From Chloroflexota bacterium (GTDB taxonomy: Bacteria > Chloroflexota > Anaerolineae > Aggregatilineales > Ch27), in assembly GCA_019873685.1 (NCBI GenBank), contig JAIOAT010000023.1, forward strand, positions 1 to 48,610: a DNA stretch of 48,610 nucleotides. The letters run 5' to 3'. A program made the translations under genes and the position numbers. Below are positions 24,227 through 33,089 of the stretch, piece after piece. The first letter of the stretch is position 1. Each line of letters begins with the position of its first letter. A model generated the notes under the pieces. That model searched no databases. It was not told the origin of the DNA and saw only the letters and a program-made list of their open reading frames with translations.

Positions 24227-24622
24227 CTATTCCTCTTCGTTTGTCCGGCGAACGACCCCGATACCCGGGCACGGCCAGAGAGGACGTGCTGGCTTGGGGG
24301 TTTGCTGGGCAAAGCCGACTACCCTGTGGGTCTGCTGGTAGGCGGCAGTGTGGCGGAAGAACGCCGTGTCATCGTCGCGCCCGTAAGGGGCCTGGTCAAG
24401 CTCCGCGGGAATTTCGGGCGCCTGCAGGTAGCCGGCCTCTTCCAGCGCGGCGGTGATCGCCGCCTCTGTCACTGCTTCCGGGTCGTAGTCCACTTCAACC
24501 AGTTGAAAGCAACTGCTGGCGTACACGCGGCGGATGCCGGGGAGCGCCAGCAGAATGCGTCGCACTTCGGTGACATGGTGGTCACCATACATGGCGGGCA
24601 GGGAAAGGGTCAGTTGGGTCAT
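24227..24622 (-). CDS. Small HMA-like protein without the metal-binding CxxC, first gene of the acs operon
   Basis: The 131-aa protein starts MTQLTLSLPAMYGDHHV and folds like a heavy-metal-associated domain over residues 1-70 (beta-alpha-beta pattern, VRRILLALPGIRRVYASS, EVDYDPEAVTEAAITAALEEAGY). Where HMA domains carry M-x-C-x-x-C it has Met-Tyr-Gly-Asp-His-His, so both cysteines are lost and two histidines stand there. Residues 80-131 are a charged tail with one Cys near the end (LWPCPG). The start at 24620-24622 lacks a strong ribosome-binding site; an ATG 66 bases upstream is possible but adds non-domain residues. As leader gene of the CODH/ACS operon it may handle nickel or be a structural partner. 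Function not known. Confidence 0.7.
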   Translation of the reverse strand: MTQLTLSLPAMYGDHHVTEVRRILLALPGIRRVYASSCFQLVEVDYDPEAVTEAAITAALEEAGYLQAPEIPAELDQAPYGRDDDTAFFRHTAAYQQTHRVVGFAQQTPKPARPLWPCPGIGVVRRTNEEE

Positions 24623-25070
24623 TGGCGCTTGCTTTCTGTACTCGTTTGGCGGTCGATATTCCTGGTGGAAAGCGGGCAGACCGGTCATGACGGGTCGCCC
24701 CGGCGCTGAGGCTGCAAGACGATAACAACAGACGGCGGTCTGGCTGCGGTGGAGGGGGCGGTGAACCGTCGGGTGGCACTGAGTTTGTGGTTTTTTATAT
24801 GTTCCTTTTTTTTGACAGGGAATGTCAAGTGAAAAATATCACGTCAAAATCGGCCTGAAATGGTGTCTGAAACAGGCCGCGCCGGGGAGGCTTCAGCCGG
24901 GAAATCAGGGCACGGATGCGGCTGGTGAGCTTGTTTATCGCGCTAGAGCAGCTCATTTCATAAGAATATATTATCTAAAGTATAGGCAATGATTAAATTA
25001 AATTATGCTTTAGTTTATGCAATTTACCCATATATACTCACTGAGAGGGCGATTCTGGCACAAATAGCTA
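24623..25070. promoter_or_regulatory. Acs-side half of the divergent promoter region, with two inverted repeats
   Basis: No gene is supported. TTGACA-N5-TGTCAA (24812-24828) is a perfect 6-bp inverted repeat, and GTGA-N6-TCAC (24829-24842) directly follows it. The second has the core of a CRP-type site. On the minus strand TTGACA (24828-24823) could serve as a -35 box with TATAAA/CATATA at about 24801-24794, but the spacer is 19-23 bases, so the exact promoter is uncertain. The remaining acs leader is about 170 bases to the HMA-like start. From about 24950 the sequence becomes very AT-rich. Confidence 0.4.
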
Positions 25071-25087
25071 TTGTGCAATATGTACAA
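25071..25087. promoter_or_regulatory. Imperfect TTGT-N9-ACAA palindrome (secondary CRP-like site)
   Basis: TTGTGCAATATGTACAA is symmetric except at one pair. It lies 40 bases (centre to centre) upstream of the perfect CRP-type site, on the same side of the DNA helix within four turns. It may be a second, weaker site for the same regulator. Confidence 0.35.
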
Positions 25088-25110
25088 AATTGCATCAAAA
25101 AAGGCGTAAT

Positions 25111-25153
25111 TTGTGAATGAGTTCACAATCCTGTACCTTTTCACTCCTATAAT
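25111..25153 (+). promoter_or_regulatory. CRP/FNR-type class II promoter for the hdr-mvh operon
   Basis: TTGTGAA-TGAG-TTCACAA (25111-25128) is a perfect palindrome containing TGTGA-N6-TCACA, the CRP-family consensus. A consensus -10 box TATAAT lies at 25148-25153. With transcription starting near 25160, the palindrome centre falls at about -40.5, the class II activator position where the protein replaces the -35 element; indeed no good -35 hexamer is present. The region is AT-rich against a GC-rich genome. The sensed ligand cannot be told; a cAMP, redox or gas-sensing CRP/FNR family protein encoded elsewhere would be expected. The transcript would have a leader of about 315 bases before hdrC. 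Confidence 0.65.
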
Positions 25154-25474
25154 GAAAATGAATGTGTCAGCCATTGTGATGTGTGTGGACCGTTTCACAG
25201 GTGTCGGGACAGGAGTCTCTCCTGCTCATCGCTTCGTCGCCGCTGCCATCGTTCCCCTCGCTGCGGTTTGCCGTTACGTAGGCCCGGTTCTGACAGGCTA
25301 ACTGAATACCGGCTTCATCATCCTCCCGTTGCCGCCCCTGCCCGGTGATTACCATAGCTCTGGGGTCTGCGTTTTCGTTCCGGGCGTAACCCGGTCGGTG
25401 TTGCAGACGGGTGCTGCCCATGGTCTTCCGGCCCCCGGGCAGGGAATAGCCGGGAAACAAAAGGAGGCTGCCAC
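25154..25474 (+). promoter_or_regulatory. Long 5' leader of the hdr-mvh transcript, several small hairpins
   Basis: No coding sequence is supported in these 321 bases. CAGGAG-TCT-CTCCTG at 25210-25224 is a perfect 6-bp hairpin. CTGCCC (25414-25419) pairs with GGGCAG (25437-25442), just upstream of the hdrC ribosome-binding site AAAAGGAGG (25459-25467). I recognise no known riboswitch: there is no B12 box or other core motif. The leader may fold and regulate translation, but this is unproven. Confidence 0.35.
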
Positions 25475-26044
25475 ATGCCCGAAGGACCCAACGGCAGGAC
25501 GTTTTACCAGCGTGTGGTGCAAGCTACGCCAGGGGGGAAGAGCCTGGCGCAGTGCCTGCAGTGCGGTTCCTGTGGCGGATCGTGTCCGTCCGGCCCGGAC
25601 ATGGATCATTCCCCCCGCCAGTTGTTCGCCATGATCATGGCCGGGATGGAAGACGAGGTGCTCAGCAGCAATACGCCCTGGCACTGCGTCTCCTGTTACT
25701 ACTGCACTGTGCGTTGCCCCCAGCAAATTCCCATTACTGACCTGATGTATACGCTCAAACAGATGGCTATTGCGCGCGGCAAATACCGGGAAAGCGGCCA
25801 TGTCGATTTTTCCAACAGCTTCATCGGCATGGTAGAACGCTTTGGGCGCAGTTTTGAGCTTGGTCTGGCCACGCGCTACCACCTGACCCATAACCCCTTG
25901 AAGATGGTCAGCAAGGGTACGCTGGGCTTGCAGATGATGGTTAAGGGGCGGCTCAGCCCGTTGCCGGAATCCATCCGCAATATGCCGCAGCTCACGGCCA
26001 TCCTCACCGAGGCCAAGCGCATTGCCGCGCAGCAGGAGGTGTGA
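25475..26044 (+). CDS. hdrC: Heterodisulfide reductase subunit C-like iron-sulfur protein
   Basis: HdrC passes electrons between HdrA and HdrB. The 189-aa protein carries two [4Fe-4S] motifs: Cys27, Cys30, Cys33, Cys37 (CLQCGSCGGSCP) and Cys71, Cys74, Cys77, Cys81 (CVSCYYCTVRCP). A C-terminal helical part (LKMVSKGTLGLQMMVKGRL) follows, usual for HdrC that contacts HdrB. AAAAGGAGGCTGCCAC precedes the ATG. It is the first gene of the hdr-mvh operon; its stop is one base before the hdrB start. In bacteria the substrate of HdrBC is not the methanogen heterodisulfide CoM-S-S-CoB, so the true acceptor is unknown. Confidence 0.93.
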   Translation: MPEGPNGRTFYQRVVQATPGGKSLAQCLQCGSCGGSCPSGPDMDHSPRQLFAMIMAGMEDEVLSSNTPWHCVSCYYCTVRCPQQIPITDLMYTLKQMAIARGKYRESGHVDFSNSFIGMVERFGRSFELGLATRYHLTHNPLKMVSKGTLGLQMMVKGRLSPLPESIRNMPQLTAILTEAKRIAAQQEV

Positions 26045-26045
26045 G

Positions 26046-27011
26046 GTGACAGCGCCGAATGGACAGTATGCCTACTACCCCGGCTGTTCGCTGAAGGCTT
26101 CGGCGAGCGCCTACGAACGCTCGGCCATGGCCGTCCTCGAACGGCTGGAACTGCGTTTTGTGGAGATCGACGACTGGAACTGCTGCGGCGCGACCGAGTA
26201 CTTCAGTCTGAACAGGCTGCCGGCCTACAGCCTGGTGGCCCGCAACCTGGCGCTGGCCGCCGCCCAGCCGACCCATGAGCTGGTCGCTCCCTGCAGCGCC
26301 TGCTACCTCAACCTGCGCAAGACCGACGATCATATGCGCCAGGAGCCGAAGCTCAAGGAGCAGGTGAACCGGGCGCTGGCGGCGGGCGGGCTGCATTACG
26401 AGCCGGGGACGCTGCGCGTCCGCCACCTGCTGGATGTCATCATCGATGACGTCGGCTACGAGGCGATTGCCGCCAAAGTCACCCGTCCGTTGGCCGGGCT
26501 GCGCGTGGCGCCTTACTACGGCTGCCTGGTGGTTCGCCCGTTCGAAAGCGACGATCCTGAGTATCCGACGCATATGGATCGCCTGCTGGAAGTGCTGGGC
26601 GCGACGGTGGTGGACTTCCCGATGAAGGCTCACTGCTGTGGCGGGCACATGACCCAGATCAGCGAGGATACCGCCTTTGAGTTGATCCGGCGCATCCTGC
26701 ACAACGCTGCCGCTTACCAGGCTGACGTGATCGTCACCGTCTGCCCGATGTGCCAGCTCAACCTGGACGCCTACCAGGGCAATGTCAACCGCCGGTTCGG
26801 GACGGCCTTTAACCTGCCGGTTCTCTATTTCACCCAGATGATGGGCCTGGCCTTTGGCCTGCAGCCGGAGGCGCTGGGCATTGGCAGCGAACTCGTGCCG
26901 GCGCAGGCTGCGCTGAACAAGATCGGTCAGGTGCCAGCGGAGACGCCCAGGCACACGCCCAAGCGACGCGACAAAGACGCCCTGCCGATGCCGTCGCGGC
27001 AGCGTCGCTAA
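26046..27011 (+). CDS. hdrB: Heterodisulfide reductase subunit B-like protein with two CCG domains
   Basis: The GTG at 26046 follows AGGAGG-TGTGAG and gives a 321-aa protein; a longer in-frame ATG upstream has no good site. Two CCG domains bind the unusual non-cubane [4Fe-4S] clusters: Cys14, Cys46-Cys47, Cys83, Cys86 (WNCCGATEY, PCSACY) and Cys160, Cys197-Cys198, Cys233, Cys236 (HCCGGHM, CPMCQ). In methanogens this is the site of heterodisulfide cleavage; in bacteria the acceptor is unknown. All cluster ligands are kept, so it should be active. The C-terminal tail (about 300-321) is Lys/Arg-rich and family-atypical. Operon neighbours are hdrC and hdrA. Confidence 0.93.
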   Translation: MTAPNGQYAYYPGCSLKASASAYERSAMAVLERLELRFVEIDDWNCCGATEYFSLNRLPAYSLVARNLALAAAQPTHELVAPCSACYLNLRKTDDHMRQEPKLKEQVNRALAAGGLHYEPGTLRVRHLLDVIIDDVGYEAIAAKVTRPLAGLRVAPYYGCLVVRPFESDDPEYPTHMDRLLEVLGATVVDFPMKAHCCGGHMTQISEDTAFELIRRILHNAAAYQADVIVTVCPMCQLNLDAYQGNVNRRFGTAFNLPVLYFTQMMGLAFGLQPEALGIGSELVPAQAALNKIGQVPAETPRHTPKRRDKDALPMPSRQRR

Positions 27012-27037: not shown

Positions 27038-29068
27038 ATGACTGAAGAGCGTGTTGGCGTTTACGTCTGCCACTGCGGCCATAACATCGCCGGGACGGTG
27101 GACGTGGAAGCGGTCGCTCAGTGGGCGCAGACGTTGCCCTATGTGGCGGTCGCCCGCGATTACAGGTTTATGTGCTCCAGCCTGGGCCAGGAGCTGATCG
27201 AAAAAGATATCAAAGAGCTGGGGTTGACGCGGGTAGTGGTAGCGGCCTGTTCCCCCCATATGCATGAGCCGACCTTCCGGGGGGTCTCGGCCCGCGCTGG
27301 CCTGAACCCTTACCTGATGGAGATGGCCAACATCCGCGAGCATGCCAGCTGGGTGCACCGCGACGACATGGCTGCGGCGACCGATAAGGCCAAGGCGCTG
27401 GTGGCCGGGGCTGTCCGGCGCGCCCTGGAACTGAAGCCGCTGGAGCCGTTCAAGGCGGCGATCAAGGAGACGACGCTGGTGGTCGGCGGTGGCATCGCCG
27501 GGATCACTGCGGCGCTGGAGATCGCCAACGCTGGTTACCCGGTGGTGATGGTTGAGCGGGAACCTAGCATCGGCGGGCATATGGCCCAGCTGGACAAAAC
27601 CTTCCCCACGCTGGACTGCTCCGCCTGCATCCTGACGCCCAAGATGTTTGATGTCGGCACCCATCCCAACATCACCCTGCTGACCTACAGCGAGGTGGAG
27701 CAGGTCGATGGCTATGTCGGCAATTTCACCGTCCGCGTGCGCAAGAAGGCCCGCAAGATCAACACTGATGTGTGCACCGGCTGCGGGGATTGCTGGTCGC
27801 GCTGCCCGGCCAAGGTGGTGGATGAGGTCTTTGAGGCCGGGCTGGGCTACCGCACGGCGGTCTACCGACCCTTCCCTCAGGCCGTGCCCAAGTACCCGGT
27901 GATCGATGTTGAAAGTTGTATTTACTTCCAGAAGGGCACCTGCCGGGCCTGCGAGAAGTTCTGCCCGACCGGGGCGATCAGCTTTGACCAGGAAGATGAA
28001 GTCATTGTGCTCAGCGTGGGCAACATCGTCCTGGCCACCGGCTACAAGACGTTCGACCCGCGCCAGATCCCGCAGTACGGCTACGGGCGGCTGGCGAATG
28101 TCTTCACCAGCATGGAGTTCGAGCGGATGGTCAACGCAGCCGGCCCCACCGGCGGCAAGGTCGTCCTGCGCGATGGCGTGACCACGCCCAAGAGCGTGGG
28201 CATCATCCACTGCGTGGGCAGCCGCGATCATCGCTTCAATCGCTACTGCTCGGCTACCTGCTGCATGGCCGCGCTCAAATTCTCCCACCTGGTTAAGGAA
28301 CGCACCAACGCCGAGGTGTACCAGTTCTATATCGACATGCGCGCCAGCTTCAAGGACTACGAGGAATTCTACGTGCGCATTCTGGATGAAGGCGCGCATA
28401 TGGTGCGCGGGCGCGTGGCCGAGGTGACCGACGCGGCCCGTCAGCCGGGCGAAGAAGGCAAGCTGATCATCCAGGTGGAAGACACCCTGATCGGTCGGCA
28501 GCGGCGCATCCCCGTGGATATGGTGATCCTGATGGTAGGCATGGAGCCGCAGGAGGACGCGGTGGAGATCTCCCATCTGTTCGGGATCGGCTGTTCCACC
28601 GCGGGCTTCTTCACCGAGCGGCATCCCAAGCTGGACCCCGTGGCGACCATGACCGATGGCATCTTCATCTGTGGGGCCTGCCAGGGGCCAAAGGACATCC
28701 CGGAGAGCGTCGGGCAGGGCGCGGCGACAGCAGCCCGTGTCCTCAGCCTGATCGGCCAGAAGGAAGTGGAAATCGAGCCGATCCGCGCCCAGATCGACGA
28801 ATCGCGCTGCTCCGGTTGCCGGGTGTGCAACACCATGTGCCCCTACAGCGCGATCGACTACATCGAGGAACTGGGCGTCAGCCGCGTGAATCCGGCGCTC
28901 TGCAAGGGCTGTGGTACGTGCGTGGCGGCCTGCCCCAGCCAGGTGATCACCGGCCAGCACTTTACGTATGAGGCGATCATGGCCCAGATCGAGGGGCTGC
29001 TCTACGATGTGCGCAGCGGAAACGGCCATAAGACTGTCGCCGAGCCGCAACCGGTTGAGGTGGCCTAG
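27038..29068 (+). CDS. hdrA: Heterodisulfide reductase subunit A, flavin-based bifurcating core
   Basis: HdrA is the FAD protein where hydrogenase electrons are split between ferredoxin and HdrBC. The 676-aa protein has an N-terminal domain with Cys11/Cys13, a thioredoxin-reductase-like FAD fold (VVGGGIAGITAALE at about 148-161), Cys194 and Cys197, and an inserted ferredoxin with C246/C249/C252/C256 and C294/C302/C305/C309. The C-terminal ferredoxin has C591/C594/C597/C601 and C622/C625/C628/C632 (CKGCGTCVAACP). Size and cluster content match methanogen-type HdrA with the inserted ferredoxin domain. The ATG follows AAAGGACGTAAAACC. It lies between hdrB and mvhD, as in HdrABC-MvhADG complexes. 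Bifurcation is inferred from the family. Confidence 0.94.
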   Translation: MTEERVGVYVCHCGHNIAGTVDVEAVAQWAQTLPYVAVARDYRFMCSSLGQELIEKDIKELGLTRVVVAACSPHMHEPTFRGVSARAGLNPYLMEMANIREHASWVHRDDMAAATDKAKALVAGAVRRALELKPLEPFKAAIKETTLVVGGGIAGITAALEIANAGYPVVMVEREPSIGGHMAQLDKTFPTLDCSACILTPKMFDVGTHPNITLLTYSEVEQVDGYVGNFTVRVRKKARKINTDVCTGCGDCWSRCPAKVVDEVFEAGLGYRTAVYRPFPQAVPKYPVIDVESCIYFQKGTCRACEKFCPTGAISFDQEDEVIVLSVGNIVLATGYKTFDPRQIPQYGYGRLANVFTSMEFERMVNAAGPTGGKVVLRDGVTTPKSVGIIHCVGSRDHRFNRYCSATCCMAALKFSHLVKERTNAEVYQFYIDMRASFKDYEEFYVRILDEGAHMVRGRVAEVTDAARQPGEEGKLIIQVEDTLIGRQRRIPVDMVILMVGMEPQEDAVEISHLFGIGCSTAGFFTERHPKLDPVATMTDGIFICGACQGPKDIPESVGQGAATAARVLSLIGQKEVEIEPIRAQIDESRCSGCRVCNTMCPYSAIDYIEELGVSRVNPALCKGCGTCVAACPSQVITGQHFTYEAIMAQIEGLLYDVRSGNGHKTVAEPQPVEVA

Positions 29069-29080
29069 GAGGGTGATGGT

Positions 29081-29587
29081 ATGAGCAAGACGAACTTCAG
29101 TGAACTCAATCCCGCCTGGGGCGATCGGCAGCCGATCCTGGTCGGCTTCCTGTGCAACTGGTGCTCCTACCGGGCGGCGGACCTGGCCGGGACCAGTCGT
29201 CTGGGTTACCCCGCCACGCTGCGCGACATCCGCATCATGTGCACCGGTCGGCTGGACCCGGCGTTTGTGCTCAAGGCGCTGCGGGAAGGGGCGGACGGCG
29301 TGCTGGTGATGGGCTGCCATCCCGGTCAGTGCCACTACCAGGAGGGCAACTACAAGGCCATGCGCCGGATTGCCCTGTTGCGGCGCACGCTGGCCCAACT
29401 TGGCGTCCACCCGGATCGCGTCCAGCTGGCCTGGGCGTCAGCGGCGCAGGGCACCATCTTCACCGAGAAAGTGGCGGCGATGACAGACGTGGTGGGCCGG
29501 CTGGGACCGCTGGAATGGCGCGACACGATTGAAGACCCCGCGCCGCAGATGAAGGTGCTATCGCTTGAGGAGGTCGCACATGGCTAG
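29081..29587 (+). CDS. mvhD: MvhD/FlpD-type [2Fe-2S] electron carrier linking hydrogenase to HdrA
   Basis: The 168-aa protein has the MvhD domain: Cys25, Cys28 (LCNWCSYRAAD), Cys54 (RIMCTGRLDP), Cys79 and Cys84 (GCHPGQCHYQEGNYKA). These motifs bind a [2Fe-2S] cluster that connects the hydrogenase to HdrA. GGAGGGTGATGGT precedes the ATG. The stop overlaps the start of mvhG by eight bases, so the two are translationally coupled. No fused methyl-viologen or FrhB-like domain is attached. Its position between hdrA and mvhG matches the canonical order hdrA-mvhD-mvhG-mvhA. Confidence 0.94.
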   Translation: MSKTNFSELNPAWGDRQPILVGFLCNWCSYRAADLAGTSRLGYPATLRDIRIMCTGRLDPAFVLKALREGADGVLVMGCHPGQCHYQEGNYKAMRRIALLRRTLAQLGVHPDRVQLAWASAAQGTIFTEKVAAMTDVVGRLGPLEWRDTIEDPAPQMKVLSLEEVAHG

Positions 29588-30617
29588 TACGAATGGCAAA
29601 CCCAAGCTGGCCCTGTACTGGGCGTCCTCCTGTGGAGGTTGCGAGATCGCCGTGCTGGCCATCCATGAGAAGCTGCTGGAGGTAGCCGAGGCCTTTGATG
29701 TGGTCTTCTGGCCGTGCGCGATGGACTTCAAGCAGGCGGAGGTGGAGGCGATGGCCGACGGCGAGATCGACGTTTGCCTGTTCAACGGCGCGATCCGCAA
29801 CGACCATAACGCTCATATGGCCCATCTGCTGCGCCAGAAGAGCAAGGTGCTGGTAGCCTTTGGCAGCTGCGCCAACGAGGGATGCATGCCCGGCCTGGCC
29901 AACTTCACCGACCGCGAGCATATCCTGCGCTTCATCTATCAGGAGTCGCCCAGCACCGATAACCCGCAGGGCGTCAGACCGCAACTCCGGACGGAAGTGC
30001 CGGAAGGCACGCTGGAGCTGCCGGACTTCTGGAATACGGTCAAGACGCTCGATCAGGTGGTGCCGGTCGACTACTATCTGCCCGGCTGCCCGCCGGAGGC
30101 CAAGTGGGTTGCGGCGGCGGTGGACGCCATCGTGACCAACAAGCTGCCCCCGCCCGGCTCAGTGATCGGCATGGATGTGGCTGTCTGCGATGAGTGCCCG
30201 CGCAAGCGCGATGTCAAGAAAATCACCCGCTTCTACCGGCCGTATGAAATCGTCCCCGATCCGGAGATCTGCCTGCTGGAACAGGGGTTGTTCTGCGCCG
30301 GGATCGCCACACGGGCGGGCTGCGGGGCACTGTGCCCGTCGGTCAACATGGGCTGCCGGGGCTGCTATGGCCCGGTCGAGGGCGTTGAGGACATCGGCGC
30401 GCGGCTGATCAGCGCCATTGGCTCGATTATTGAGGCCAAGACGCCGGAGGAGATCGACGCCGTGCTGGATACGTTGCCCGACCCGGCGGGGTACTTCTAC
30501 CGCTTCAGCCTGGCGCGTTCCTTCCTGCGGCGGACACGGATGGGCCAGCAGGATGGGCGCCGGGTCGCCGAGCCGATCGCGGAAGTCCCGCGCCTTGAAC
30601 CTGAACTGGCGGACTAG
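29580..30617 (+). CDS. mvhG: Group 3c-like [NiFe] hydrogenase small subunit
   Basis: The ATG at 29580-29582 follows GAGGAGGTCGCAC; a 15-base upstream ATG lacks a site and is not preferred. The 345-aa subunit holds three iron-sulfur clusters that move electrons from the active site to MvhD. Proximal cluster motif: YWASSCGGCEIAVL (Cys18, Cys21). Further cysteines lie in FGSCANEGCMPG, YLPGCPPE, and a C-terminal run CDECPRKRD / GCGALCPSVNMGCRGCYGP. There is no twin-arginine signal or membrane anchor, so the enzyme is cytoplasmic, as in non-F420-reducing Mvh hydrogenases. It overlaps mvhD and precedes mvhA by ten bases. Confidence 0.93.
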   Translation: MASTNGKPKLALYWASSCGGCEIAVLAIHEKLLEVAEAFDVVFWPCAMDFKQAEVEAMADGEIDVCLFNGAIRNDHNAHMAHLLRQKSKVLVAFGSCANEGCMPGLANFTDREHILRFIYQESPSTDNPQGVRPQLRTEVPEGTLELPDFWNTVKTLDQVVPVDYYLPGCPPEAKWVAAAVDAIVTNKLPPPGSVIGMDVAVCDECPRKRDVKKITRFYRPYEIVPDPEICLLEQGLFCAGIATRAGCGALCPSVNMGCRGCYGPVEGVEDIGARLISAIGSIIEAKTPEEIDAVLDTLPDPAGYFYRFSLARSFLRRTRMGQQDGRRVAEPIAEVPRLEPELAD

Positions 30618-30627
30618 GAGGCCGACG

Positions 30628-32094
30628 ATGAAACAGATCACCATTGACCCCATCACCCGCCTGGAAGGGCACGGCAAGATCGAGGTCTTCCTGGATGACG
30701 CCGGGGAAGTCGCCAATACTTACTTCCAGGTGCCGGAGCTGCGCGGCTTCGAGGTGTTCTGCTTGGGGCGCCCGGCGGAAGAGATGCCCCGGCTGACCAA
30801 CCGCATCTGCGGCGTCTGCCCGGAAGCGCATCACATGGCGGCGGCCAAGGCGCTCGACGCACTCTACCATGTCGATCCACCGCCCGCCGGCAAGAAGCTG
30901 CGCGAGTTGTTCTACTCGGCCTTCTATGTCACCGACCACACCACGCACTTCTATGCCCTGGGCGGGCCGGATTTCGTCGTCGGGCCGGATGCGCCTGCTG
31001 CTCAGCGCAACATCCTGGGGGTGATCGCCGCTGCAGGCAAGGAAGCCGGCCTGCGCGTGATCAACACGCGCAAGAAGAATCATGAGGTGATCAAGATCAT
31101 CGGCGGGCGGGCCATCCACCCCGTGGCGGCCCTGCCCGGCGGCATGAGCAAGGCCATCAACGAAGCCGAGCGCCAGTTCATCGAGCAGGTGGCGCGGGAA
31201 AACGTGGAGTTCGCCCTGTGGTCGCTGGAGCTGTTCGACCAGATCGTGCTCAAGAACAGCGGCTATGTCGACCTGATCGTCAGCGACGCCTTCACCCAGA
31301 AGACCTACTACATGGGCCTGCTGGACGAGAACAACCACGTCAACTTCTACGATGGCATGATCGCTGTGGTCGATCCTGAGGGCAAGATGTTCGCCCGCTT
31401 TGAGCCGCGCGATTACACCAAGCACATCGCCGAGCATGTCGAACCGTACAGCTACCTCAAGTACCCGTACCTGAAGAACGTGGGCTGGAAGGGCTTTGTT
31501 GACGGCAAAGACTCCGGCATGTACGCCTGCACGCCGCTCAGCCGCCTGAATGTCGCCGATGGCATGGCTACCCCTAAGGCTCAGGAGGCCTACGAGAAGT
31601 TCTACACGACGTTGGGCGGCAAGCCGGTACACCACACCCTGGCGACTCACTGGGCGCGCTTGGTTGAGCTACTCTATGCCGCCGAACGGATGCTGGAACT
31701 GGCAACTGACCCGGAGATCACCAGCCCGAACGTGCGCAAGATTCCGACGGAAAAGCCAGATGTTGGCATCGGCACGGTAGAGGCCCCGCGCGGGACGCTG
31801 ACGCATCACTACGAGACCGACGAGAAAGGCATTCTGACCCGCGTCAACCTGATCGTTGGCACCACCAATAACCACGCGCCCATCACCTACAGCATCAAGA
31901 AGGCGGCCAAAGCCATGATCCGGGGCGGGGTGGTCAATGACGGTATTCTCAACCGCATCGAGATGGCCTTCCGCAGCTATGACCCGTGCCTGAGCTGCGC
32001 CACGCATTCCCTGCCGGGGCAGATGCCGCTGGAGGTGCTCGTCTACGATTCGTCCGGCGCGCTGGTGGAACGCCGCGCACAGTATGTCGACTGA
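30628..32094 (+). CDS. mvhA: Group 3c-like [NiFe] hydrogenase large subunit
   Basis: I chose the ATG at 30628-30630 (TAGGAGGCCGACG upstream); the frame runs open upstream through mvhG, but those residues are antiphase to that gene and not homologous. The 488-aa subunit contains the nickel-iron site: N-terminal RICGVCPEAHH (Cys61, Cys64) and C-terminal DPCLSCATH (Cys454, Cys457, His460). The last 28 residues after His460 look like the C-terminal extension removed during maturation, and a matching protease gene follows directly. It oxidises H2 and delivers electrons through MvhG and MvhD to HdrA. Belongs with the Mvh family, not the respiratory type. Confidence 0.95.
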   Translation: MKQITIDPITRLEGHGKIEVFLDDAGEVANTYFQVPELRGFEVFCLGRPAEEMPRLTNRICGVCPEAHHMAAAKALDALYHVDPPPAGKKLRELFYSAFYVTDHTTHFYALGGPDFVVGPDAPAAQRNILGVIAAAGKEAGLRVINTRKKNHEVIKIIGGRAIHPVAALPGGMSKAINEAERQFIEQVARENVEFALWSLELFDQIVLKNSGYVDLIVSDAFTQKTYYMGLLDENNHVNFYDGMIAVVDPEGKMFARFEPRDYTKHIAEHVEPYSYLKYPYLKNVGWKGFVDGKDSGMYACTPLSRLNVADGMATPKAQEAYEKFYTTLGGKPVHHTLATHWARLVELLYAAERMLELATDPEITSPNVRKIPTEKPDVGIGTVEAPRGTLTHHYETDEKGILTRVNLIVGTTNNHAPITYSIKKAAKAMIRGGVVNDGILNRIEMAFRSYDPCLSCATHSLPGQMPLEVLVYDSSGALVERRAQYVD

Positions 32095-32650
32095 TCGCTG
32101 CCCGGACGCCGCCGCGCCAGCGGCAGGCGTCCGGGTGATCGGGCTGGGCAATCCGATCCTGACCGATGACGGCGTCGGCATCTACGTGGCCCGGCTGGTG
32201 CGGCGGTTGCTGCCGGCCGGGGTGAACGTGGAGGTGGTCGAACTGGCAACGGGCGGGCTGGGGCTGATGGAGGCCATGATCGGCTGCGAGCGGGTGATTC
32301 TGATCGACGCGATCTGGTCGCCGGAAGAAGCGCCGGGGCAGGTGTTACGCTTCACGGCGGAAGCCCTGCCGGAGACGCTGAACAGCGCCGCCGCCCACGA
32401 CATCGACCTGCCCGGCGCACTGGCAGCGGGGCGGCGGCTGGGCGTGCCGCTGCCGACCGATGACGCCATCCAGATTGTGGCGGTGACGGCGCGGGAAGTG
32501 TTGACCTTCGGCGAGCGTCCCACACCACCGGTGCTGGCTGCCATCCCCCCGGCGGCGGCAACCGTGCTGGAAGCGCTGGGCTACCCGCCGGACGCTGTCC
32601 CCCCGGTACTGAACGAGTCGATGCTGGGAGGCTACGATGATATCGCCTGA
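32084..32650 (+). CDS. [NiFe] hydrogenase maturation protease (HyaD/HycI family)
   Basis: The 188-aa protein cleaves the C-terminal extension of the nickel-loaded large subunit. It opens after a short Ala-rich lead with VRVIGLGNPILTDDGVGI, where the Asp and Gly-Asn-Pro bind the nickel at the cleavage site, and has DAIWSPEEAPGQVLRF, with the second acidic ligand, and the family AAAHDIDLPGALA segment. The start overlaps the mvhA stop by 11 bases, so it is coupled to its substrate. The C-terminal 30 residues (PPDAVPPVLNESMLGG) extend beyond the core. It is the only maturation gene in view; hypA-F must lie elsewhere. Confidence 0.9.
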   Translation: MSTDRCPDAAAPAAGVRVIGLGNPILTDDGVGIYVARLVRRLLPAGVNVEVVELATGGLGLMEAMIGCERVILIDAIWSPEEAPGQVLRFTAEALPETLNSAAAHDIDLPGALAAGRRLGVPLPTDDAIQIVAVTAREVLTFGERPTPPVLAAIPPAAATVLEALGYPPDAVPPVLNESMLGGYDDIA

Positions 32651-33089
32651 GATTCTGCGCCGGTATCCTTTCTTTGCTGGACTTGATGACGCCTTTCTCA
32701 CCGCGCTGGCTATGATCAGCGACGAGGTGGTCCTGGCCGACGGGGTGTGGCTGTTCCATGAGGAAGACAGCGCTGACGCCTTCTACCTGGTGTTGCGCGG
32801 GACGATTCAGCTGCGGGCGCGGTTGCCGCGCAATGCCTACGCCGACCTGGATCAACTGGTGGAGGGGGATATCGTTGGCTGGTCGGCCATCTGCAGGCCG
32901 GCGGTGTACACGCTGGGCGCCTACACGCCCACAGGCGCGCGGCTGATCCGCTTTGAGGGCGCCGCGATGCGCAAGTTGATGGAAGAGCGGCCCGAAATGG
33001 GCTATGTACTGATGTGCCGGGTGGCCCAGGAGATCGGTAACCGCCTGGCCGACCTGCGCAATCGCTTTGTCAGCATTGCTACGCCCTGA
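32637..33089 (+). CDS. Cyclic-nucleotide-binding-domain protein without DNA-binding domain
   Basis: The 150-aa protein is a single cNMP-binding-like beta-barrel: LRRYPFFAGLDDAFLTAL, then FHEEDSADAFYLVLRGTIQL and EGDIVGWSAICRPAVYTLGAYT, then a C-terminal helix (MGYVLMCRVAQEIGNRLADL). The phosphate-binding cassette is degenerate: canonical Gly-Glu-x-x and the Arg are not at the usual places, so the ligand may not be cAMP. A CRP/FNR protein would continue with a helix-turn-helix; here a stop is followed by a terminator, so there is none. GGGAGGCTACG precedes the ATG, overlapping the protease gene by 14 bases. It may sense a ligand for the hydrogenase complex. Not recognised as a named gene. Confidence 0.75.
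   Translation: MISPEILRRYPFFAGLDDAFLTALAMISDEVVLADGVWLFHEEDSADAFYLVLRGTIQLRARLPRNAYADLDQLVEGDIVGWSAICRPAVYTLGAYTPTGARLIRFEGAAMRKLMEERPEMGYVLMCRVAQEIGNRLADLRNRFVSIATP

Follow-up and report, generated by a model that had tools for sequence, protein, structure and literature searches.

A predicted Rex operator before the hdrCBA-mvhDGA operon of an uncultured, Wood-Ljungdahl-carrying Chloroflexota bacterium

Those Rex proteins that have been studied are NADH/NAD+-sensing repressors. Their published consensus operator is TTGTGAA-N4-TTCACAA, with gel shifts in Staphylococcus aureus among the evidence (PMC2883068, PMC6391272, PMC13077300). Rex-like sites have been described before the Ni-CODH/ECH genes of Parageobacillus (PMC13077300), and before cooS-ech1 and hyd-3b of Calderihabitans maritimus (PMC7306483). 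The palindrome TTGTGA-N6-TCACAA before the sat and apsAB genes of Desulfovibrio was first given to the CRP/FNR-type regulator HcpR (PMC545781), and Rex was later linked to sat control in D. vulgaris (Christensen et al., as cited in PMC11451228). Here, we analysed a 48,610-nt stretch of a Chloroflexota genome (hereafter the window), in which a palindrome of this type stands before an hdr-mvh operon and had initially been annotated as the class II site of a CRP-like activator. We found that the palindrome is most likely a Rex operator, at which NAD+-bound Rex would repress hdrCBA-mvhDGA and from which NADH would release it.

All genes of the controlled operon lie on the forward strand. The first is hdrC (25475..26044), encoding a heterodisulfide reductase subunit C-like 4Fe-4S protein whose closest named records are Chloroflexota MAGs. 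It is followed by hdrB (26022..27011, likely start 26046), the CCG-domain subunit; hdrA (27038..29068), an HdrA2-like flavin subunit scoring 823 bits with NF040770, which is under the cut-off of that model; mvhD of the FlpD family (29081..29587); mvhG and mvhA, the small (29580..30617) and large (30628..32094) [NiFe] hydrogenase subunits; and a hydrogenase maturation protease of the HycI family (32084..32650). The last gene (32637..33089) encodes a lone 150-aa protein of the cNMP-binding fold without HTH, which begins MISPEILRRYPFFAGL, has no DNA-binding domain and carries a phosphate cassette that is non-canonical by eye. The initial annotation had placed the regulator outside the window, and indeed no DNA-binding regulator of the CRP kind was recognised within it, this lone cNMP-fold protein being the one qualification. 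The gene for the 150-aa protein stays near the operon in the relatives G001, G015, G011, G017 and G047, and G047 keeps it though no CRP/FNR regulator was detected there.

Upstream of hdr-mvh and divergent from it lies an operon for CODH/ACS and the Wood-Ljungdahl pathway. In its promoter (24812-24857), TTGACA-N5-TGTCAA adjoins AGTGAAAAATATCACG, inside an extended block that hardly differs in the sister genome G001. GTGA-N6-TCAC-like sites were also seen before cooS in G020, G007 and G004. The palindromes of the divergent promoter are neither Rex-like nor clearly CRP-like; the one at 24828-24843 was considered as a Rex site of the CODH operon and rejected as a different kind of site, because it has 5 mismatches to Rex.

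The palindrome before hdrC occupies 25111..25128 (TTGTGAATGAGTTCACAA, that is TTGTGAA-TGAG-TTCACAA). Its 7-nt arms are perfectly complementary across 4 nt, as first reported, and a scan of the window found an exact TGTGA-N6-TCACA at this place only. From its centre to the TATAAT at 25148..25153 (forward strand), the predicted -10, which is identical and at equal distance in G001, there are 28 nt; transcription is therefore predicted to start at about 25160, with the centre at about -40.5, in agreement with the distance of roughly 40 bases originally proposed. The 18-bp perfect inverted repeat would thus span the -35 region, from about -49 to -32. CRP/FNR-family activators at -41.5 replace the -35 contact, and the layout found here, relative to a start that is predicted only, is the class II one, with TGTGA-N6-TCACA near -41.5 and a weak or absent -35. 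The initial annotation saw no -35 box. This holds for normally spaced boxes, as a search of 24600-25500 gave no sigma-70 promoter whose spacer measures 16-18 nt, but the right operator arm contains TTCACA (25122..25127, forward strand), a weak -35-like hexamer that matches TTGACA at 5 of 6 bases and stands a non-optimal 20 nt from TATAAT. The missing well-spaced -35 is no less compatible with an activator than with a repressor, which counts against repression by Rex, and the weak -35 leaves room for one more activator. The spacing of 28 nt is limited to this genome (G000) and the congeneric G001, other relatives having a variable spacing or no clear -10.

A second near-palindrome had been noted 40 bases upstream. 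It exists, but as GCACAA-N7-TTGTGC at 25058-25076, centred 52 nt upstream, with arms that point outwards; it is lost in the sister genome, where TTGTGC has become TTGTAC. A third near-match at 25184-25199 (TGTGGACCGTTTCACA) likewise decays there, and both were rejected as additional operators because neither is kept in the sister genome. Between the predicted start and hdrC runs a predicted leader of about 315 nt (25160..25474, forward strand) with the Shine-Dalgarno sequence AAAGGAGG at its end and patches conserved in G001. A riboswitch or other RNA leader was rejected here, since Rfam returned no family at gathering score for the leader and, below that score, chance-level matches only.

Compared with the Rex consensus TTGTGAANNNNTTCACAA, 25111..25128 shows 0 mismatches. 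The genome carries one rex gene (L073:4638-5255; G000:C2, near 70.6 kb), whose 205-aa product combines PF06971 (winged-helix N-domain) with PF02629 CoA_binding (Rossmann NAD(H) domain), scores 271 bits with NF003995 against a cut-off of 126, and matches solved Rex structures at 1e-47 (phmmer). PF06971 is present in 56 of the 61 genomes of the relatives set. The gene's own upstream region has only a half-good site, ATATGAGCTTTTTCACAA, at -45 with 3 mismatches, a point against the Rex reading. Of the rex upstream regions of 30 relatives, 12 carry a site with no more than 3 mismatches versus 0.45 expected, and most of them keep the TTCACAA half best; these sites hint at possible autoregulation. 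Further genomic sites fit Rex logic by the genes that they precede. These are a group-3b-like [NiFe] hydrogenase operon (beta subunit by family; gamma-like gene and protease for maturation recognised in the translation) and a DASS transporter with a succinate dehydrogenase/fumarate reductase-type flavoprotein behind it. An MbhD/NuoJ-like gene has a Rex-like site in three genera (this genome, G020 and G014). Together with the hdr-mvh site, these define a predicted Chloroflexota Rex regulon containing HdrABC-MvhADG.

To place these sites against chance, we counted them in the whole genome (4.1 Mb, 61% GC, 96.75% complete), with approximate expectations from an i.i.d. base model and intergenic calls from a simple codon-usage gene caller. 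Exact TGTGA-N6-TCACA sites, of which the initial annotation had proposed a genome-wide search, number 10 against about 1.9 expected; all 10 are intergenic, and a backward control pattern has 0 occurrences. The full 18-mer TTGTGAANNNNTTCACAA is found in 2 exact copies (about 0.003 expected), in 5 with at most 1 mismatch (about 0.14 expected) and in 14 with at most 2 mismatches, 12 of them intergenic. Over the 20 half-sites around the TGTGA core, the outer base is T in 13 (p 0.0004) and the inner base A in 10 (p 0.02), while the inner T typical of E. coli CRP is found in 0 of 20, so that the bases outside and inside the core lean to Rex. The palindrome before hdrC, at the -35 position of the hdr-mvh promoter, very probably has a true regulatory function.

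Two other loci of this genome stand out. At L008 1501-1539 (G000:C67:3351-3389), two tandem TGTGA-N6-TCACA sites, one of them TGTGACATTTGTCACA and both recurring in G001, lie upstream of genes for an ArsR-type regulator and a multihaem-cytochrome-like protein. At L003/L004 (G000:C24:36458, 37856), a promoter-like stretch of 75 nt that closes with a TTGTGAA palindrome is present in two near-identical copies on the same contig, at a distance of 1.4 kb; one stands before ligA, with glycyl-radical-enzyme-like genes further on.

Conservation points the same way as the counts. The alignment with relatives that had been suggested as a check bears the palindrome out in the sister genome: the G001 site before hdrC (TTGTGAATGCATTCACAA, 0 mismatches) keeps 14 of 14 arm bases, with 2 of the 4 spacer bases changed. 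G047 (TTGTGAATAATTTCACGA) and G014, which has two palindromes in tandem (GTGTGAATGAATTCACAG and TTGTGTATAATTTCACAA), show 1 mismatch each. In a survey of 30 genomes, 7 hdrC upstream regions carried a site within 2 mismatches of the consensus, versus 0.06 expected from shuffles; these include the window itself, G001, and also G015 and G017, whose T at the inner position leaves them ambiguous between Rex and CRP. All targets inspected in G001 keep their sites (hdrC, the [NiFe] hydrogenase 3b, MBL-DegV and ligA), and its exact-site list has counterparts of most of the remaining G000 sites.

The CRP/FNR complement of the genome bears directly on which regulator reads the palindrome. Only two CRP/FNR regulators were found, encoded on C45 and C34, with VETASR and PETLSR at residues 180-185 and hence Val or Pro, not Arg, at position 180; the other four cNMP-fold proteins are without a recognisable CRP HTH, and no CRP/FNR protein with an Arg180-Glu181-Arg185 type helix was found in the 96.75% complete genome. 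Under the rule of Rodionov et al., a G as third base of the site accompanies Arg180, and a T accompanies Ser or Pro, giving TTGA-type sites (PMC1274295). At E 1e-8 no CRP/FNR HTH was found in G013, G047 or G009, yet G013 holds nine exact palindromes and G047 its TTGTGAATAATTTCACGA upstream of hdrC; G014 has CRP/FNR proteins, none with Arg180. Arg180 CRPs (REVVYR and similar) occur in G001, G004, G011, G015, G017 and G034, and in five of these (G001, G004, G015, G017 and G034) an exact TGTGAC-N4-GTCACA lies beside CRP genes. With the caveat that sites within one genome are not independent, symmetric C at position 7 was seen in 3 of 28 exact sites of genomes without Arg180 CRPs versus 15 of 38 of those with them (p 0.012), and A at position 7 in 26 of 56 versus 18 of 76 half-sites (p 0.009). 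The window site has A at position 7 on both sides. Position 7, A versus C, may thus serve as a simple rule separating Rex from CRP/FNR sites in this order, TGTGA-N6-TCACA being common to both.

In other families, TGTGACAnnTGTCACt-like (CRP/FNR-type) palindromes were seen upstream of hdrC (L025, L029, L034, L024 and L036), which points to a switch of regulator among lineages. We put forward, as a tentative idea, that within one Chloroflexota order the same hdr-mvh promoter has been swapped between the NADH-sensing repressor Rex (inner A) and a CRP/FNR-type regulator (inner C) by way of near-identical 16-bp palindromes. If true, one symmetric base pair may choose the redox signal that runs a hydrogenase/bifurcation module. 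A related alternative for the locus itself is that Rex reads the site here while the hdr-mvh promoter also answers, or ancestrally answered, to an activator of the CRP/FNR type whose palindrome overlaps the site. Such dual or swapped control is suggested by TGTGACAnnTGTCAC-like or mixed sites before hdrC in G004, G034, G009, G015 and G044, by the tandem palindromes of G014, and by the sister genome, which carries Rex as well as Arg180 CRPs. We nonetheless regard it as unlikely: no TGTGA-type CRP was found in G000, and the promoter has a single full palindrome, its other near-palindromes being lost in the sister genome.

Sole control by a CRP/FNR-family activator (CRP, HcpR-like or similar), bound at about -41 and recruiting polymerase in the class II manner, corresponds to the initial annotation and is improbable on present evidence. 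The TGTGA-N6-TCACA core, the centre at about -40.5 and the lack of a normally spaced -35 all suit it, HcpR of Desulfovibrio reads the similar wTGTGAnnnnnnTCACAw (PMC1274295), and several relatives have both CRP/FNR-type palindromes before hdrC and Arg180 CRPs. Against it, VETASR and PETLSR lack the Arg180 that goes with the third-base G (PMC1274295), no CRP HTH is recognisable in the remaining four cNMP-fold proteins, the TGTGAC-N4-GTCACA sites beside the CRP genes of relatives have C and not A at position 7, and the spacing to the -10 is not kept beyond the genus. A CRP may be missing from the assembly, because the genome is about 97% complete, and CRP control of the operon is plausible elsewhere, because the sister has Arg180 CRPs and other families have TGTGAC-N4-GTCAC before hdrC. 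The match to the Rex consensus, the presence of Rex, the failure to find an Arg180 CRP and the retention of sites in relatives without a detected CRP/FNR regulator together indicate that the CRP reading of this palindrome is probably wrong. An HcpR-like factor was set aside as first choice on the same grounds, and CooA was rejected since its site, TGTC-N8-GACA (PMC7306483), differs from the palindrome. That the palindrome arose by chance and has no regulatory role is scarcely credible: mismatch-tolerant palindromes are at chance level in the window (at most 2 mismatches, 11 found versus 14.7 expected), but chance would give the exact 18-mer about 0.003 times in the genome, G001 keeps all 14 arm bases while the spacer differs, and sites are enriched upstream of hdrC across the order.

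The preferred reading, control by Rex, can be put as a sequence of events, in which NADH sensing and repression are carried over from the studied Rex proteins. While NAD+ is dominant, a Rex dimer would sit on 25111-25128 and cover the -35 region, keeping polymerase off hdrCBA-mvhDGA. As NADH builds up, Rex would be released from the operator, and the HdrABC-MvhADG hydrogenase/electron-bifurcating complex would be made together with its maturation protease. Surplus electrons might thereby gain an outlet through H2, ferredoxin and disulfide, beside the divergent Wood-Ljungdahl operon. Since the site spells a Rex operator and not a CRP site, the hdr-mvh genes are probably on at excess reducing power. 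The original proposal of an H2/CO2 module under a CRP-like switch is thus retained in so far as a redox-type switch is placed over an H2 module, and loses its CRP-like, activating part. An account based on CRP activation gives way to one in which an H2-linked electron-bifurcating complex of an uncultured Chloroflexota with the Wood-Ljungdahl pathway is under a putative NADH/NAD+ switch. A limited open-access literature search pairing heterodisulfide reductase with Rex returned no report that we recognised as describing Rex control of HdrABC-MvhADG.

Set beside known systems, the locus resembles the class II promoters of CRP/FNR regulators (E. coli CRP, HcpR) in its TGTGA-N6-TCACA core near -41 and weak -35, and differs from them in that no Arg180 CRP/FNR was found here and that the inner A/T and outer T/A fit Rex. 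The sat/apsAB site of Desulfovibrio presents the same ambiguity between CRP/FNR and Rex, in another phylum and before other target genes. Parageobacillus and Calderihabitans share with this genome predicted Rex sites before C1/H2 clusters, a group 3b hydrogenase included; there, however, the CODH-hydrogenase genes bear the site, whereas here it is the divergent hdr-mvh promoter, with no Rex-type site close to the CODH/ACS operon. Closest are the Rex operators (ROP) and regulons of S. aureus, B. subtilis and Caldicellulosiruptor bescii. Unlike in those systems, the host is a member of the Chloroflexota, the target is HdrABC-MvhADG, and the case is a prediction from sequence; as in them, a single Rex gene goes with the identical 18-bp consensus, and hydrogenases and further redox enzymes are among the targets (PMC2883068, PMC6391272).
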